Below are positions 37,308-44,153 of a stretch of 64,000 nt of DNA, one piece after another. The stretch's first letter is position 1. Each line of letters opens with the position of its first letter. The notes beneath the pieces were generated by a model that did no database searches, was not told the origin of the DNA, and saw nothing but the letters and a program-made list of their open reading frames with translations. This stretch comes from Halostella pelagica (lineage in GTDB: Archaea > Halobacteriota > Halobacteria > Halobacteriales > Natronoarchaeaceae), in contig CP040678.1 of NCBI GenBank assembly GCA_005954745.1, forward strand, positions 1,674,001-1,738,000, read 5' to 3'. A program made the position numbers and the translations under genes.

Positions 37308-38099
37308 ATGGACAAGCGTCGCAGTCACACCCCCGGACGACTCACCCGCCGTCGGCTTCTCGTCGGGATGGGCGTGACTGCGACGGTCGTCGGTGGAGCG
37401 TCTATCACTACGGAAGCGTTCTCTTCCGTGACTGGCTCTCGACTGACGAATCTGAACGTCGCCGACGACCCCGACGCACTCATCAGCTTACTGGTCAACG
37501 ATACGGTCCGGAAGAACAATCGGGGGCTTCTCGTAGAGATCGAAAACAACACCACTGGAACTGTCGATTTTAGCGTTACGCTTGACGACCCATCCCACGG
37601 AACACTGTACAACAACAATCCGACGCTCGGGGCCGGTAGCTCGCAGCGGGTCGAGATCACGGCTGAAGTCAAGGACGTCCAAGTCCCGTTTACTATCGTC
37701 GGTACGTCACCGAACTTTCAGTTCGAGGCGGCGCGAGAAACGACCGCGGTGTCCGGCAACACCAGCGGCGCAGTGACCATCGACAAGGTCAAAAAGTTCA
37801 GTGCGAACGACTGGGACGAGAACTGGACGATACAAACGGTAAAAGTGAGTAGCCAAAACGAACTCGACCGCGTCGAATACGAAGTGACCGACAGCAACGG
37901 CGAGACGCGGGCCACTCGAACTGACACCGCCTCCGGGACGAGGTACGTGCGGAAAGGGCAAGGGAACGCCCCCGCGATAACCCTCGAACCCGACGACAGC
38001 GGATACGACGTACAGGGAGGGACGACGTACGAACTGACGGTTACCGCGTTCGACGTCCAGAACAACTTCGATTCCGTTACGCGGACAGATACCGCTTGA
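37308..38099 (+). CDS. Exported protein with Tat-type leader, first gene of a surface cassette
   Basis: A 263-residue protein with an N-terminal twin-arginine leader (LTRRRLLVGMGVTATVVGG) ending near TEAFSSV. The mature part is beta-strand rich, Asn/Thr/Ser rich and has several N-glycosylation sequons (NDT, NTT, NTS, NWT). LLVEIENNTTGTVDFSVTL and GAGSSQRVEITAEV fit an Ig-like or camelysin-like sandwich, and a second domain follows (LDRVEYEVTDSNGETRATR). The sequence after the leader resembles that of the 39730-40335 protein in layout. I do not recognise a named family; a cell-surface or filament subunit is inferred. Confidence 0.75.
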   Translation: MDKRRSHTPGRLTRRRLLVGMGVTATVVGGASITTEAFSSVTGSRLTNLNVADDPDALISLLVNDTVRKNNRGLLVEIENNTTGTVDFSVTLDDPSHGTLYNNNPTLGAGSSQRVEITAEVKDVQVPFTIVGTSPNFQFEAARETTAVSGNTSGAVTIDKVKKFSANDWDENWTIQTVKVSSQNELDRVEYEVTDSNGETRATRTDTASGTRYVRKGQGNAPAITLEPDDSGYDVQGGTTYELTVTAFDVQNNFDSVTRTDTA

Positions 38100-38149
38100 A
38101 CGTTTCGGGTCGGAAAGCAGTGTGACCGACAGTCAGATCCGGATCACCG

Positions 38150-38686
38150 TCATCGCGGTCGATCCATCTCTCCGAGGTGGTACTTGTTACTCGTGTAGGT
38201 GTGTACGGCCGCGGAGACGGCGAACAGGGAAACAACCAGCAACCCCCATCCAATCGCCGGGACAGGGTCCGTCGGTAGCACCTCAACCCACACGCCGCCC
38301 AGGATCACCACGCCGACGACGGACAGCCCCAGATAGTAGACGCCCCAGGGTATCGAGCCCTCCGGAACCACGTCCATGTATACGTCTAACTCGTCCGCTG
38401 CCTCTGTGAGTTCGATCTCGTGGTTCTCGTATTCGATCATGCCCGAGTCAGCGAGCGCTGGGAGGTGCGTCTGCTGAAGGGACGTGTACACGCGCTTTCG
38501 CTCCGCAGAGGTCAGTTCCGGGACGTCTTTCTCTTCTTCCCAGGCCGCGACCTGTTCGGCCAGGTCCGAAAGGGTCACTGGCCCGTCTTCCTGCTTGCAG
38601 AACTGGATCGTGTACCGCCGACGGTGGTTGCTGAGCAACGAGAACACCTCGTCTTTGTCCGAGAGGCCACCGTTCTGGGTCGCCAT
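38150..38686 (-). CDS. DUF7344 winged-helix protein with membrane anchor
   Basis: A 178-residue protein. Residues 10-100 form the haloarchaeal DUF7344 winged helix-turn-helix (DEVFSLLSNHRRRYTIQFC, LSDLAEQVAAWEEE, RVYTSLQQTHLPALADSGMI), a DNA-binding fold. Two membrane helices follow (VYYLGLSVVGVVILGGVWV and IGWGLLVVSLFAVSAAVHTY). It is thus a membrane-tethered one-component regulator or a membrane protein with a DNA-binding-like head. It sits inside the surface-protein cassette on the opposite strand, so it may sense the envelope and control the cassette. Confidence 0.8.
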   Translation of the reverse strand: MATQNGGLSDKDEVFSLLSNHRRRYTIQFCKQEDGPVTLSDLAEQVAAWEEEKDVPELTSAERKRVYTSLQQTHLPALADSGMIEYENHEIELTEAADELDVYMDVVPEGSIPWGVYYLGLSVVGVVILGGVWVEVLPTDPVPAIGWGLLVVSLFAVSAAVHTYTSNKYHLGEMDRPR

Positions 38687-38820
38687 TCTTGTTTCTGGTC
38701 AATGAACTAATGTATGATATTGTTTTCGCACTGCCACATCGTTCGACGCGTCACTGAAAATCGGGTTTTATCCAGGTTGGACTGAAACGCTGCGAACCGA
38801 AGGGAAGTAACCCCGGACTC

Positions 38821-39324
38821 TCAGTTGGATCTGCAGTCGTACTGCACGTTCTCTGCAGTGACGGCCGCACCGTCAACTGCCACGGAATCGCCCTCCGCCG
38901 AAACCCTGACCGTCACGTCCGTCTGCCCGCTCTCCTCGACATCGCCCGTACAGCCGAGTTCGATCGTGTCCGATCCGTCCGGTGCGAGCGTCTCCGGCGT
39001 CGATCGAACCTCGAAAAGATCCCCTGTTCCACCGTCGACCGTCGCTTCGGTGACTGTGACATTCTGGTCGAACTGATTGTGAACCGTGACTACCTCCTGC
39101 GGTTGCTCGTCTGTGTAACAGAAGAACCACACGCACTCGTAATTGCGTATCTCCTCTCCGGCGTATCCGTCGTCGTGAAGCCCGAGAAACGCGTTTTCCG
39201 GAGCAGCGGCGTTCACGTTGACTCCTCGATCCGCCGCTGATGTCGTGAAGCCGCTGCTCTGTGCGGCGAGAATGAGCGCGCCAACCACCAGTAGCACCAC
39301 TCCCAACCGCTTGAGCACCGTCAT
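38821..39324 (-). CDS. Exported DUF1102-like surface protein
   Basis: A 167-residue protein with an N-terminal hydrophobic leader (LGVVLLVVGALILAA) followed by a segment ADRGVNVNAAAPENAFLGL that resembles the ADRSVNVSVAGDSSAFLQL segment of the 39730-40335 protein. A Cys pair (ECVWFFCYTDE) and two further Cys (GCTGDVEESG, YDCRSN) could form disulphides outside the cell. The mature part looks like a beta sandwich with an NQTVT-like sequon (NVTVTE). It lacks an obvious membrane anchor beyond the leader. Function unknown; part of the cassette on the minus strand. Confidence 0.75.
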   Translation of the reverse strand: MTVLKRLGVVLLVVGALILAAQSSGFTTSAADRGVNVNAAAPENAFLGLHDDGYAGEEIRNYECVWFFCYTDEQPQEVVTVHNQFDQNVTVTEATVDGGTGDLFEVRSTPETLAPDGSDTIELGCTGDVEESGQTDVTVRVSAEGDSVAVDGAAVTAENVQYDCRSN

Positions 39325-39729
39325 CGGTGTACGGAGGTATCTCCCTCGCTGTGAGTCGGTACTCGCTGTTTGCGTCTCGACCGAACGTCGTTGTATTGGA
39401 ACGTAACCTGTGCAAGCATGTCTGGCTGAGCCACTGAGTCGTTCTCGCGCATGCGTGGTCTGGACGTGAACCGGCGACAGTGGGTGGCCACGAGCGAAAA
39501 GAGGCAGTCCTTTCGAGCGGTACCACGTTGGAACGACATTTCAATCGTATTTAATTTATATCTCACTCGCATTATTACTTTCGGGGTCGGAGCGTGTTTT
39601 TGGCGTTCAAGAGAGGCTTTCGCGGAGTTCAAGATCGACTTGCGGAACATTCAAGCTCACTAATACAAAGGGGGCGGGCTGTATTTGGAGAAATAAGCAC
39701 GACCTACCGTGCGAACGGAAACTACAATC
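39325..39729. other. Intergenic region with AT-rich promoter patches
   Basis: About 400 bp between divergent surface-protein genes. There is an AT-rich TATA-like stretch (TATTTAATTTATATCTC near 39548-39566) and a GAAATAAGC element near 39690 about 35-40 bp before the next ATG. A 70-codon ORF at 39451-39663 is unconvincing. The long region suggests regulated divergent promoters. Confidence 0.4.
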
Positions 39730-40335
39730 ATGAGAATGAATCGTCGGAACGTACTAATCGGATTGGCAACGGCAACAGTCGGCGGCGGAGCTGCATTCAG
39801 CTCCGGTGCATTTAGCACAGTCGAAGCCGACCGCAGCGTGAACGTGAGCGTTGCGGGCGACAGCAGTGCTTTCTTACAACTGGACCCGACCCCCAGTGAT
39901 TACGCCCAAGAGAACGGTGGAACGCTCCAGATCGATCTGGACGGGACGAACGCCGGCGGGTCCGGGATCAACACGAACGCGACGACGGCGATCGATCCGC
40001 TGTTTACTGCCGAGAATCAGGGCGATTCGGGCGGGATCGACCTCTATATAGACACTGACGACACTAACTCCACAGTCAATGCCGGAACTGCGATAGAAAA
40101 CACCGTGAAGGACTCCAGCAGTAACACGCTCGGCACTATCGAATTTATCTTCAAGGACTCGAACGATAACGTGATCGTCGACAACAGCACGACCAACTCG
40201 GTCAACCTGGCCTCTCAGGGCGCGACCGAGAATATCTCTCTCGAGATCAACGTGCCCGACATCAACCCGAGTAACATTGCCAGCAGTTCGCTACTCAGTT
40301 CGATTACCGTAGTCGCCAAAGACGACGGAACGTAG
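39730..40335 (+). CDS. Exported DUF1102/TasA-like surface protein, candidate filament subunit
   Basis: A 201-residue protein. The leader MNRRNVLIGLATATVGGG has paired arginines; cleavage probably falls after GAFS, leaving a mature protein beginning TVEADRSVNVSV. The mature part is rich in Asn, Ser, Thr and beta strands, has at least four N-glycosylation sequons (NVS, NST twice, NIS), and is less acidic than cytoplasmic neighbours. FSSGAFSTVEADRSV-type starts are typical of haloarchaeal DUF1102 proteins, whose organisation recalls bacterial TasA/camelysin subunits made with SipW. The ATG at 39730 was chosen for the compact leader. Confidence 0.75.
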   Translation: MRMNRRNVLIGLATATVGGGAAFSSGAFSTVEADRSVNVSVAGDSSAFLQLDPTPSDYAQENGGTLQIDLDGTNAGGSGINTNATTAIDPLFTAENQGDSGGIDLYIDTDDTNSTVNAGTAIENTVKDSSSNTLGTIEFIFKDSNDNVIVDNSTTNSVNLASQGATENISLEINVPDINPSNIASSSLLSSITVVAKDDGT

Positions 40336-40545
40336 CGACAGATAGTCGCTCTCGTGGGCAGTATCGGGCAGTGGTTCGTTCGGCCGCGGTTCGCAATGAC
40401 CGCGGTACGAAATCCGTCTTCTCTCTTCGAAACCAGCCGTTCAAGGGGACGAATACCGACTCGGGACTGTTCTCAAGCCGACCATTCGCTCCTTCACGCG
40501 AGTCAATACAAAGGTAATCTGTTTCTTAGGGTGGAGTAGACCCTC

Positions 40546-41733
40546 ATGCGGCGGAACCTCCTCGTAGTCGGCGCGGTTCTCCTCCTCGGTTTCGCAGTTC
40601 CGACTGCGGCAGTGGCGTTCGACGGACCGAGAACTGACGAGGCCGGGGTCGTCTCCCTCGCACCCCACGACGGGGGGAACGGACAGTACGCAAGCGTCGA
40701 CGACGGCGAACTCGTCGTTGAACTCGACTCCCTGAACGGCGACGCCGAGACGACCGTCGACGACGTGTTCACAGTCACGTTGACCGGTGACGAACCGCGG
40801 TACGTCGCGGTTCGACACGACGCCGACGGCGTGACCGTCTATCGCGACGGCGACCCGTCGAACTCCGTCGAGGGCCGTGCAAACGCTGTCAGGCTCTCGC
40901 CCGGCGAGACGCTGTCGGTCGGGATCGCCGCTGACACCCACGGCCGCGAAGGAGTTCTAATGAACGCAATCAGCGTTATGTCGTGGTCCCCTGACGAGGA
41001 AACGCCCGGCGGCCAGCGTCCGGGAGAGACCAACGACAGAGGCGATGGCACAGACTCCGGGAACTCTGATCCGGTGTCAGTCAGAACGAGCATCGACCGG
41101 ACGGAACTAACCGCCGGCGAGAGCGTGAACGTGACGGCAGTCGTTTCCAACGGCGGGAGCAACTCGGCCGAGGTGCCGGTTCGGCTCTACATCGACGGCG
41201 TCGTCGTCGATGAGCGCCGAGTTCTGGTCTCGGGCGGCGAGAACCGAACGGTGACCTTCACCCGGCAGTTCCAGCGGGCGGGCGAGTACACTGTCGGAAC
41301 GGACGATGCCGATCCAACTATCGTCACCGTTTCACCGGCCCAAGGCCCCGCCCCCCGGTTCGCAGTAACGAACGCGACGGTAGGCGACGAGAAGATCGCA
41401 CCGGGCGACGATATGAGTGTCACAGCGAACGTATCGAACAACGGTAGCGCCGACGGGACGTTCGTCGCGGAACTCGAAGTTGACGGCGTCGTCGTCGCCA
41501 CGCAGCGAGTCGCCGTTTCCGCGGGCGAAACCAGGACGGTGACGTTCGAGACCCCGGTCGATAGCACCGGCACGTTCGCGGTGAGCGTGAGCGGAACGGA
41601 CGCGGGTTCGGTAACCGTCGCTTCCTCCGACGAGACTCCCCTCGGCGACCTGACTGAATATCCCGGCTCCGTTCTCGCCGTGGTGCCGCCGCTCGCTTTC
41701 GGGGTGGTTTTTGTCCGATTCAAGCGCCAATGA
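40546..41733 (+). CDS. Exported protein: DUF1102-like domain, two CARDB domains, C-terminal anchor
   Basis: A 395-residue protein with a Sec-type leader (LLVVGAVLLLGFAVPTAAVAF). Residues 30-150 resemble a DUF1102/camelysin-type sandwich (YASVDDGELVVELDSLNGDA). Two CARDB-type Ig-like repeats follow, each starting with a strand and SVNVTAVVSNGGSNSAEVPV or MSVTANVSNNGSADGTFVAE, each with VNVTxxVSN pattern. A C-terminal hydrophobic segment (VLAVVPPLAFGVVFV) followed by RFKRQ anchors it in the membrane. The protein would be a membrane-anchored surface or base subunit. It ends 43 bp before the signal peptidase gene. Confidence 0.8.
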   Translation: MRRNLLVVGAVLLLGFAVPTAAVAFDGPRTDEAGVVSLAPHDGGNGQYASVDDGELVVELDSLNGDAETTVDDVFTVTLTGDEPRYVAVRHDADGVTVYRDGDPSNSVEGRANAVRLSPGETLSVGIAADTHGREGVLMNAISVMSWSPDEETPGGQRPGETNDRGDGTDSGNSDPVSVRTSIDRTELTAGESVNVTAVVSNGGSNSAEVPVRLYIDGVVVDERRVLVSGGENRTVTFTRQFQRAGEYTVGTDDADPTIVTVSPAQGPAPRFAVTNATVGDEKIAPGDDMSVTANVSNNGSADGTFVAELEVDGVVVATQRVAVSAGETRTVTFETPVDSTGTFAVSVSGTDAGSVTVASSDETPLGDLTEYPGSVLAVVPPLAFGVVFVRFKRQ

Positions 41734-41776
41734 CAGGAGAGAAATAATTACGGTGTAGTAACATCATGGAGGACAT

Positions 41777-42898
41777 GTGAGACTGCGAACCCTACTGAAG
41801 GGTACGCTGGAGGCGCTCGCCGTCGTCGTCATAGTGTCGATGCTGCTCGGGCAGGTACTCGGTCAGCCGATACTCCTCGGCTACGTCACGACGAGCAGCA
41901 TGGAACCGACGGTCGACGCGGGTGACGGTTTCGTCGCAGTCCCGACCGCAGTCACTGGCGACGTGGAGAAGGGCGATGTCGTCGTGTTCGAAGCGAGCGA
42001 GATACAGGGCGGCGGTCTGACGACCCATCGGGTCGTCGACAGGACTCCGGAGGGGTACGTTACCAAGGGAGACGCGAACCCCTTCACGGACCAGGACGGG
42101 GATGAACCGCCGGTCAAAGACCGCCAGATTCGAGCGGAAGCGCTTCAGGTAGGCGGAACGGTTGTTACGGTCCCGCACCTCGGTACGGCTATCACGACTG
42201 TCCGAAGCGTAGTTGGGACGGTCGTAGGCCCGATCGCGGGCGGAAGCATCGGCGGGGTGTTCGTTGCCGTCGGTCTGGCGTTAGTCGCTCTCGCCTGGCT
42301 CACAGACGGCGGGGAACGCATCGTCTCCAGGGTGCGGTCCCGACCCAACGTTTTCGACCGACGACTGCTGTTCGGGCTGCTGTTGCTGGTGGTTGTCGTT
42401 CCGACGACGGCGGCGATGGTCGTTCCGTCAGGAGCGACCGAGTACGGCCTTCTTGTCGCCGAGGAACCCGAGGACGAGCAGTTAGTCGTCGAGGCCGGCG
42501 GACAGACAAGCGTCGAATACGTCGTGGAAAACGACGGTATCGTTCCCGTCGTCGCGGTCGTTGAACCGAACAGTGAGGGCGTTACTGTCGACGAGCGCCG
42601 GCAGTACGCGTCAGCCAGGGGATCGAGTACCGCAACCCTGACGCTAGAGGGCGGTGAATCGACGGGTGTCCACTACCGCGAGGTGACCGAACGACGGTAT
42701 CTCGCCGTACTACCGATGTCAGTGCTGGTGACGCTGCACGACATCCACCCTCTCGTCGCGATGGCGACAGTCGATCTCATTACCGCGTTCCTCGTCGGGT
42801 CGCTCGTCGTCCTCGTCGCGGGAGCGAGAAACCAACGTATCCGGTCCGCCACGCGGGACCGGCCGTTGGCGGCGCGGCTGCGGCGGTGGTTGTTTTGA
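41777..42898 (+). CDS. Signal peptidase I with C-terminal extension
   Basis: A 373-residue protein. The N-terminal 140 residues are a family S26B signal peptidase: membrane helix about residues 11-30, catalytic Ser41 in TTSSMEPT, His84 in LTTHRVVD (archaeal and ER type, where His replaces the bacterial Lys), and YVTKGDANPFTDQD as the acid region. Then come two more membrane helices (about 155-175 and 198-215), an outside domain of about 90 residues and a last helix near 325-345. Standard archaeal peptidases stop far earlier. The start is GTG with a GGAGGA ribosome site 4 bp upstream. It probably processes the surface proteins of this cassette. Confidence 0.88.
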   Translation: MRLRTLLKGTLEALAVVVIVSMLLGQVLGQPILLGYVTTSSMEPTVDAGDGFVAVPTAVTGDVEKGDVVVFEASEIQGGGLTTHRVVDRTPEGYVTKGDANPFTDQDGDEPPVKDRQIRAEALQVGGTVVTVPHLGTAITTVRSVVGTVVGPIAGGSIGGVFVAVGLALVALAWLTDGGERIVSRVRSRPNVFDRRLLFGLLLLVVVVPTTAAMVVPSGATEYGLLVAEEPEDEQLVVEAGGQTSVEYVVENDGIVPVVAVVEPNSEGVTVDERRQYASARGSSTATLTLEGGESTGVHYREVTERRYLAVLPMSVLVTLHDIHPLVAMATVDLITAFLVGSLVVLVAGARNQRIRSATRDRPLAARLRRWLF

Positions 42899-43001
42899 AT
42901 GGAATTTCAGTTATAATTATGTATCTTCAGTCACATTCGCTTCGTATGACCGGAGTGTTGGCGCTGAATGGCGGCGAAATCCAGGGAGGAACGGGGTCGC
43001 C

Positions 43002-44153
43002 GTGAGCGACTTCGTCCCGCCACGCGTCCGACTGGTTGCTGCCAGACACGGACGGCAACTGGCTGTCGCGTTCGCTCTCCTGGGACTCGTGGCGCTGGCT
43101 CTCTCCGGGTCTGTTGTGACGAACTCGGCGGCGACGACAGTCACCGAACAGCGAAACGTTCAGTCCGTCGAATCGACAGTCGAGACGAGCGCAGTCGTAG
43201 CGTCGAACGATTCGCTCTGGGAGGCCGGGACGCGGCTGGAGAACAACCCGCGGTACCTGAAAAACGACACGCCAGTGTTGACGATCACGCCGACGACGAC
43301 GGCACCAGACGGAACAAGCGTCACGCACGAGGTGCGTCTCGGAACGCGTGCGACGGCCGACGGGGAGGTGTTCTGGGAGGAGTCGGAGACGCTAGTATCA
43401 GAGACGACGACAGCGACGAACGGAACGGCGACGTCGAACGCGACGGTGGATATCCGCGAACTCGACCGCCGACTCAACCGGACCGCAACCAGGCTCTCGA
43501 ACGTCGGGACGATGGAAGTGCGGCTTCACCTGGTGACGACGTACGACACCGGCGATTACGTCGGTGAGATAACTGCGACCGCACCGCTGGAAGTGACGCG
43601 GAACGCGTACTGGGTCGACGGCGATGTCGCGGCGCAACAGACTCACCAGACGCCGGTGACACGCGAATCGAGTTCCTCGCCGGATTACACGACCGCGATG
43701 TTGCTGTTTGCCGGTTCGACCGGCGCGTTCGCCGCCAGCGCTATCCTCTGGCTCAGACGCGAGGACGCCGTCGACGTGGACGCGATCAGACAGGAGATCC
43801 ACGAACGTCGCCACGAGGAGTGGATATCGAAGGGTGCGATCCCGATGTGGATGGACAAGGACCACGTCCAGCTTGACACGCTAGAGGACGTCGTCGACGT
43901 CGCCATCGACGCGAACCAGCGGGTGATTCACGACCCGCGCTGGGACCTGTTCGCCGTCATCGAGGGCGATATGATCTACTACTACTGCAAGAACGGCTCC
44001 TGGGAGCAGATGGCGTGGCCGAGCGTCGACTCGATGGAACCGAGCAACGTCGAAGGCATCGAATCGTCGGGCGTCGGGACCGAAAGCTCGCCCGGTGGCG
44101 GCCGAGGGGCTCCGCCCGACCCGGACGACGAGGACGCCTGGGAGCAGTTATAG
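43002..44153 (+). CDS. DUF5305 membrane protein
   Basis: A 383-residue protein with an N-terminal helix (LAVAFALLGLVALALSGSVV), an extracellular part of about 190 residues (beta-rich, many sequons, ending near YWVDGDVAA), a second helix (YTTAMLLFAGSTGAFAASAI) and a cytoplasmic domain of about 130 residues rich in charges (HERRHEEWISKGAIP, LDTLEDVVDVAIDANQRV). This is the DUF5305 family layout. It is usually next to signal peptidase I genes in haloarchaea. Start is GTG, with GGGAGGA 14 bp upstream; a TATA element near 42912-42920 may give it its own promoter. Function unknown. Confidence 0.8.
   Translation: MSDFVPPRVRLVAARHGRQLAVAFALLGLVALALSGSVVTNSAATTVTEQRNVQSVESTVETSAVVASNDSLWEAGTRLENNPRYLKNDTPVLTITPTTTAPDGTSVTHEVRLGTRATADGEVFWEESETLVSETTTATNGTATSNATVDIRELDRRLNRTATRLSNVGTMEVRLHLVTTYDTGDYVGEITATAPLEVTRNAYWVDGDVAAQQTHQTPVTRESSSSPDYTTAMLLFAGSTGAFAASAILWLRREDAVDVDAIRQEIHERRHEEWISKGAIPMWMDKDHVQLDTLEDVVDVAIDANQRVIHDPRWDLFAVIEGDMIYYYCKNGSWEQMAWPSVDSMEPSNVEGIESSGVGTESSPGGGRGAPPDPDDEDAWEQL

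Follow-up and report, generated by a model that had tools for sequence, protein, structure and literature searches.

Tat-dependent fimbriae (tafi; Tat, twin-arginine translocation) of haloarchaea have TafA as core component (Galeva et al., iScience 2025, 28:111793, as cited in PMC12687288). The Tafi pilus of Natrinema sp. J7-2 is available from the Protein Data Bank (PDB) as entry 9P0A, which was released on 2025-07-23 under the title 'Structure of Natrinema sp. J7-2 Tafi pilus'. Another type of fibre, built from TasA, relies on donor-strand assembly (PMC9674648). Here we compare these systems with a cassette of seven genes on a 64,000-nucleotide stretch of Halostella pelagica (contig CP040678.1, positions 1,674,001 to 1,738,000; hereafter the window). 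Proteins are named after the positions at which their genes start in the window.

An initial annotation had interpreted the region 37308-44153 as a surface-filament cassette with its own signal peptidase. All seven genes are found at the positions given there, four of them with export leaders, and homology to the solved tafi pilin bears out the filament proposal, although the annotation had overlooked that this is a known system, tafi. Judged by its sequence the cassette is real, functional-looking and a tafi of the Natrinema J7-2 type; that it belongs here rather than with the tafA-containing type, and works by the filament mechanism proposed below, we hold to be highly likely. Halostella pelagica very probably makes thin surface fibres from this gene set. 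Such fibres are already known from other haloarchaea, and the window cassette is a further case with an informative variant make-up.

A pilin with a solved relative

The 39730 protein matches 9P0A over its full length (residues 1 to 197, phmmer E 9.9e-29), with 46% identity for the whole chain and 41% for the mature part. Its AlphaFold model (predicted local distance difference test, pLDDT, 78; predicted template modelling score 0.77) has 9P0A as best fold match in the PDB (Foldseek E 4e-8), followed by the donor-strand pilins FimA, FimF, Caf1, PapE and AbpA and the Sulfolobus thread. The modelled fold is thus of the donor-strand type, in agreement with the subunit role first proposed for this protein. 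No Pfam match is obtained, even at E 1. The Tat leader spans approximately residues 1-33 (MRMNRRNVL...STVEA, motif MNRRNVLIGL) and is present in 51 of 51 pilin-family relatives; that MRMNRRNV does not vary in alignment A1 is in part an effect of ascertainment, since this peptide served as one of the search patterns. The mature protein begins with DRSVNVSVAGDSSAFL, the predicted donor strand, and the first strand of the model (E3-9, DRSVNVSV...) would be freed by a cut after VEA.

Several observations weigh against the tafi assignment. The NCBIfam models of TafE, TafC and TafA pick out three exported proteins (39730, 38821 and 37308), but all window scores (TafA 50 and TafE 83 bits for 39730, TafC 45 bits for 38821) are under the curated cut-offs of 190, 410 and 155 bits, and canonical TafA is not found anywhere in the Halostella pelagica genome. 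Also, NCBI names the TafE family 'adapter', and the role of the 39730 type as shaft rests on 9P0A. The solved J7-2 pilin itself, however, fails both the TafA and the TafE cut-off (77 bits for TafE), which indicates that the NCBI cut-offs mark a subgroup, the tafA type, and not all tafi. Because this pilin likewise scores higher for TafE than for TafA, the filament subunit of the J7-2 type is a TafE-like protein, and the 39730 protein is therefore predicted to form the shaft. Among 195 haloarchaeal genomes the TafA model has matches in 142, many of the weaker ones to the leader only, and 18 over cut-off.

Alternatively, the shaft might be formed by the 38821 protein, with the 39730 protein acting as adapter only, as the NCBI name would imply. 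In canonical tafi loci the divergent slot of the 38821 gene is indeed taken by tafA, and the preference of the 39730 protein for TafE over TafA fits as well. Yet the subunit of the solved filament belongs with the 39730 protein and shows the same preference, and many complete cassettes, that of a congener among them, have no gene resembling 38821. Moreover, the core of the 38821 model resembles PapD-like immunoglobulin folds, including fimbrial chaperones, rather than a pilin, a hint only given the low confidence of the model (pLDDT 63, with the first 41 residues under 50). The protein contains four cysteines and has its N-terminal segment in common with the pilin (profile match over the N-terminal 79 columns). 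We regard 38821 as shaft as unlikely and retain the 39730 protein in this role.

The mature window pilin is nearer to that of Natrinema 9P0A than to those of the congeners at L074 and L075 (26-33% identity), unlike the peptidase and the DUF5305 protein, which are 61-63% identical to their congeneric counterparts. These identities suggest rapid divergence or allele exchange of the pilin, which diverges faster than the remaining cassette.

Conserved gene order and variable subunits

As the initial annotation had proposed, we searched for the same gene order in other haloarchaea and found it conserved. The order DUF7344 (opposite strand), pilin, CARDB protein, peptidase and DUF5305 recurs with few exceptions in 17 relatives with named genomes and 20 further loci. 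For 16 of the 17 genome-contig relatives the run from pilin to DUF5305 is complete, and in the remaining one a contig end interrupts it. DUF7344 is encoded near the run on the opposite strand in all 17 except L026, where none was found in the stretch examined. Loci with tafA over the NCBI cut-off contain TafC, DUF7344, TafA, TafE and CARDB genes; their outermost genes encode signal peptidase and DUF5305. DUF5305 is carried by 158 of the 195 haloarchaeal genomes. The borders of the window cassette are clear because it is flanked by genes for a Gfo/Idh/MocA oxidoreductase and a TIM-barrel protein.

It might be argued that the exported proteins form no filament at all and belong, for instance, to an S-layer-associated or sensing complex, given that assembly is deduced from homology. 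The full-length match to a solved filament subunit at 46% identity and the conservation of the whole cassette make this very improbable.

The tafi core thus consists of pilin, anchor, peptidase, DUF5305 and regulator, whereas TafA, TafC and the 37308- and 38821-like subunits vary. Relatives of the 37308 family occur in the same orientation at L017, L019, L025, L027 and L077. The orthologous locus of the congener (L074, with the same MocA neighbour) keeps only the five core genes and has no 37308- or 38821-like gene. We consider both proteins accessory, in keeping with a role at the tip or as another kind of minor subunit. Several Natrinema-type cassettes (L015, L028, L076) include a protein of approximately 1,030 amino acids that the window lacks. 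Such proteins are similar to CARDB, have N-termini reminiscent of type IV pilins of archaea (SPLVGVILLFAIV) and adjoin the 38821-like gene in several cassettes of the window's tafi type. A same-family tafi cassette further encodes a TafC-like exported protein of 1,458 amino acids (L072:11543-15919), a candidate giant adhesin.

Export is mixed: the 37308 and 39730 proteins carry Tat leaders and the other two exported proteins leaders for the general secretory (Sec) pathway. Sec leaders are also found on CARDB proteins and most 38821-type proteins elsewhere, as against Tat on the pilin. The Tat-leader pattern gave a false positive on the window CARDB protein (MRRNLLVV; the motif is missing from its 37 counterparts) and a few others that stem from the choice of an upstream in-frame start (L029, L076). 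In canonical tafA loci (L062-L065) the leaders of TafC-type proteins are of the Tat kind, but in the 17 loci from named genomes (L015-L030) they are mostly Sec leaders, so that this minor subunit has changed its export route.

Three exported proteins had been described as having a similar segment behind the leader. Using a profile built from 94 segments of relatives, with the window left out, we find that exactly the 39730 (26.2 bits), 38821 (17.4 bits) and 37308 (9.5 bits) proteins rank first, second and third among 270 window open reading frames (ORFs). As the best of 5,400 shuffled ORFs reaches 11.7 bits, the resemblance is strong for the first two and only marginal for 37308. Cross-matches among the exported proteins in iterative searches are partly driven by the leaders and were checked by profile comparison and this motif test. 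A beta-rich nature is supported by structure models for two of the exported proteins. The proteins are not rich in sequons: their N-X-S/T sites (5, 1, 5 and 5) show no excess over composition (p 0.37, 0.72, 0.53 and 0.11).

Membrane components and proposed mechanism

The CARDB protein has two CARDB matches and transmembrane (TM) segments at residues 3-27 and 372-393, and its N-terminal domain matches the pilin family in a profile comparison (hhalign, probability 97%, E 5.6e-11). Because of this pilin-like domain and the C-terminal membrane segment, the earlier suggestion of a membrane-anchored fibre base is plausible. The long extension reported for the signal peptidase is likewise present: the enzyme is of the Ser-His SEC11/SipW type with invariant S41, H84, D99 and D105, and the extracytoplasmic extension is conserved. 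It passes the cut-off of TIGR02228, instead of that of the SipW equivalog NF046067 (37.3 bits, cut-off 190 bits). The DUF5305 protein comprises a TM segment (16-44), an extracytoplasmic domain, a second TM segment (233-251) and a cytoplasmic tail; its gene is co-located with a signal peptidase in nearly all loci examined. DUF7344 is kept in nearly all loci of relatives. Coordinates are given in Table 1.

In the same genome, about 0.83 Mb away, lies a second, reduced fibre cassette that combines DUF5305 with a small exported protein, a pilin-like Tat protein and a signal peptidase. TIGR02228, the model for archaeal signal peptidase I, has three matches in this genome, and the two that exceed its cut-off belong to the two fibre cassettes.

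Table 1. Features of the tafi-type cassette (window positions) and of related loci (locus positions).
Feature	Position	Strand	Evidence or remark
Two-part exported protein, Tat leader, predicted minor/tip subunit (TafC-like slot adjoining DUF7344)	37308..38099	+	TafE model 3.7e-7
DUF7344 winged-helix-type protein, two C-terminal TM segments, predicted cassette regulator	38150..38686	-	PF24035 E 1.2e-28
Small Sec-exported protein, candidate minor or chaperone-like subunit, in TafA slot	38821..39324	-	TafC-model N-half 45 bits
Tafi pilin (J7-2 type; NCBIfam TafE-like), predicted shaft subunit	39730..40335	+	phmmer to 9P0A; Foldseek; TafE 83 bits
Conserved post-leader segment of pilin, predicted first strand / donor strand	39829..39885	+	Motif profile; donor role inferred
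CARDB protein, membrane-anchored, N-terminal pilin-like domain, predicted fibre base/anchor	40546..41733	+	CARDB E 1.6e-15
Signal peptidase I, SEC11/SipW (Ser-His-Asp) type, C-terminal extension, further TM segments	41777..42898	+	TIGR02228 55.1 bits, over cut-off
DUF5305 membrane protein, predicted assembly/anchoring factor	43002..44153	+	PF17231 E 2e-44
Second cassette	L012:5281-9230, contig about 2543280-2547229		No CARDB or DUF7344
Proteins of about 1,030 amino acids	L015:6461-9559, L026:4555-7638, L027:5714-8812, L028:6482-9556, L068:10807-13881, L076:10268-13366

We propose that the 39730 pilin would be exported in folded form via Tat, after which the SEC11/SipW-type peptidase of the cassette would cut it behind VEA, directly before the first beta strand. 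The freed N-terminal strand could then be donated to a neighbouring subunit, leading to polymerisation by strand exchange. The 37308 and 38821 proteins, with the same N-terminal segment, may act as tip, initiator or chaperone-like minor subunits. At the base the CARDB protein, with a pilin-like domain on a membrane anchor, would hold the fibre, with DUF5305 as putative membrane assembly or anchoring partner, and DUF7344 would regulate expression of the cassette.

Comparison with other fibre systems

The initial annotation drew an analogy to the TasA/camelysin fibres and to AbpA. We find neither PF12389 nor TIGR04088 (SipW-class leader) matches among the window proteins, and the Pfam camelysin model has no match in 18 pilin relatives. 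In the suggested structural comparison 9P0A comes first, AbpA (7UEG) shows a weak similarity to the 39730 model (Foldseek E 0.018, probability 0.89, TM-score 0.38), and the 50 fold matches listed do not include TasA. A TasA/camelysin-type biofilm fibre cassette is the least credible of the readings, since the absence of camelysin/TasA matches and SipW-class leaders and the tafi pilin as best match by sequence and fold stand against the SEC11/SipW-type peptidase (37 bits with the SipW model), the weak AbpA match and the true camelysin-family proteins flanked by DUF5305 and a peptidase in other archaea.

The analogy fails for family membership by sequence but holds at the level of the cassette. 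Outside Halobacteria, a placement made by kinship labels ('same phylum') alone, DUF5305 adjoins signal peptidases and exported proteins (L082, L083, L084, L085, L086, L087, L089, L091), and the exported proteins tested at L082, L083, L087, L089 and L091 belong to the camelysin/TasA family (PF12389, TIGR04088). These loci contain one or two signal peptidases and several camelysin-family proteins with SipW-class leaders. L088 (7761-13442), also outside Halobacteria, is a complete cassette resembling tafi, with DUF7344, two DUF1102-type pilins with Sec leaders, an extended peptidase and DUF5305, and with a short DUF1102 protein in the slot of the CARDB protein; a profile comparison aligns its pilins with the family of the window pilin (E 1.5e-9).

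The camelysin-type loci and the L088 cassette suggest a shared chassis of DUF5305 and a SEC11/SipW-type peptidase, often with DUF7344. We tentatively propose, as a possibility not far from evenly balanced, that this chassis underlies donor-strand fibres of archaea in general, TasA/camelysin-type ones in several families of the phylum outside the haloarchaea and tafi within them, and that tafi derive from a Sec-exported DUF1102/TasA-like fibre by a change to Tat export. If true, DUF5305 gains its first predicted function, as fibre anchoring or assembly factor. The DUF5305-peptidase pair would also connect haloarchaeal tafi with TasA-type fibres in a way that can be tested, and would serve as a cassette marker for unannotated archaeal genomes.

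Compared with TasA/TapA/SipW of Bacillus subtilis and with AbpA, the cassette similarly has a dedicated Ser-His signal peptidase beside the genes for its fibre subunits, whereas its pilin has no camelysin/TasA sequence match or SipW-class leader and uses Tat instead of Sec export. The Sulfolobus thread (Saci_0406, 7PNB) and FimA are likewise donor-strand beta-sandwich subunits and fold neighbours of the window pilin, but no sequence similarity to the thread or to chaperone-usher pilins was found, and window-type cassettes contain no usher. With tafA-containing tafi the window has homologous genes for TafC, TafE, DUF7344, CARDB, signal peptidase and DUF5305 in common. It differs in that the genome has no canonical TafA, that a Sec-exported, tentatively PapD-like protein takes the slot of TafA, that the gene order is another one at the ends and that the genome contains the second, reduced cassette. 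The closest system is the J7-2 Tafi pilus (9P0A): although the mature pilin sequence has diverged, the Tat-leader pilins are homologous over their full length with the same predicted fold, and in Natrinema ejinorense a near relative with 73% identity to 9P0A (L015) lies in the same gene order as in the window. In this way seven mostly unnamed genes become one machine with a solved relative.

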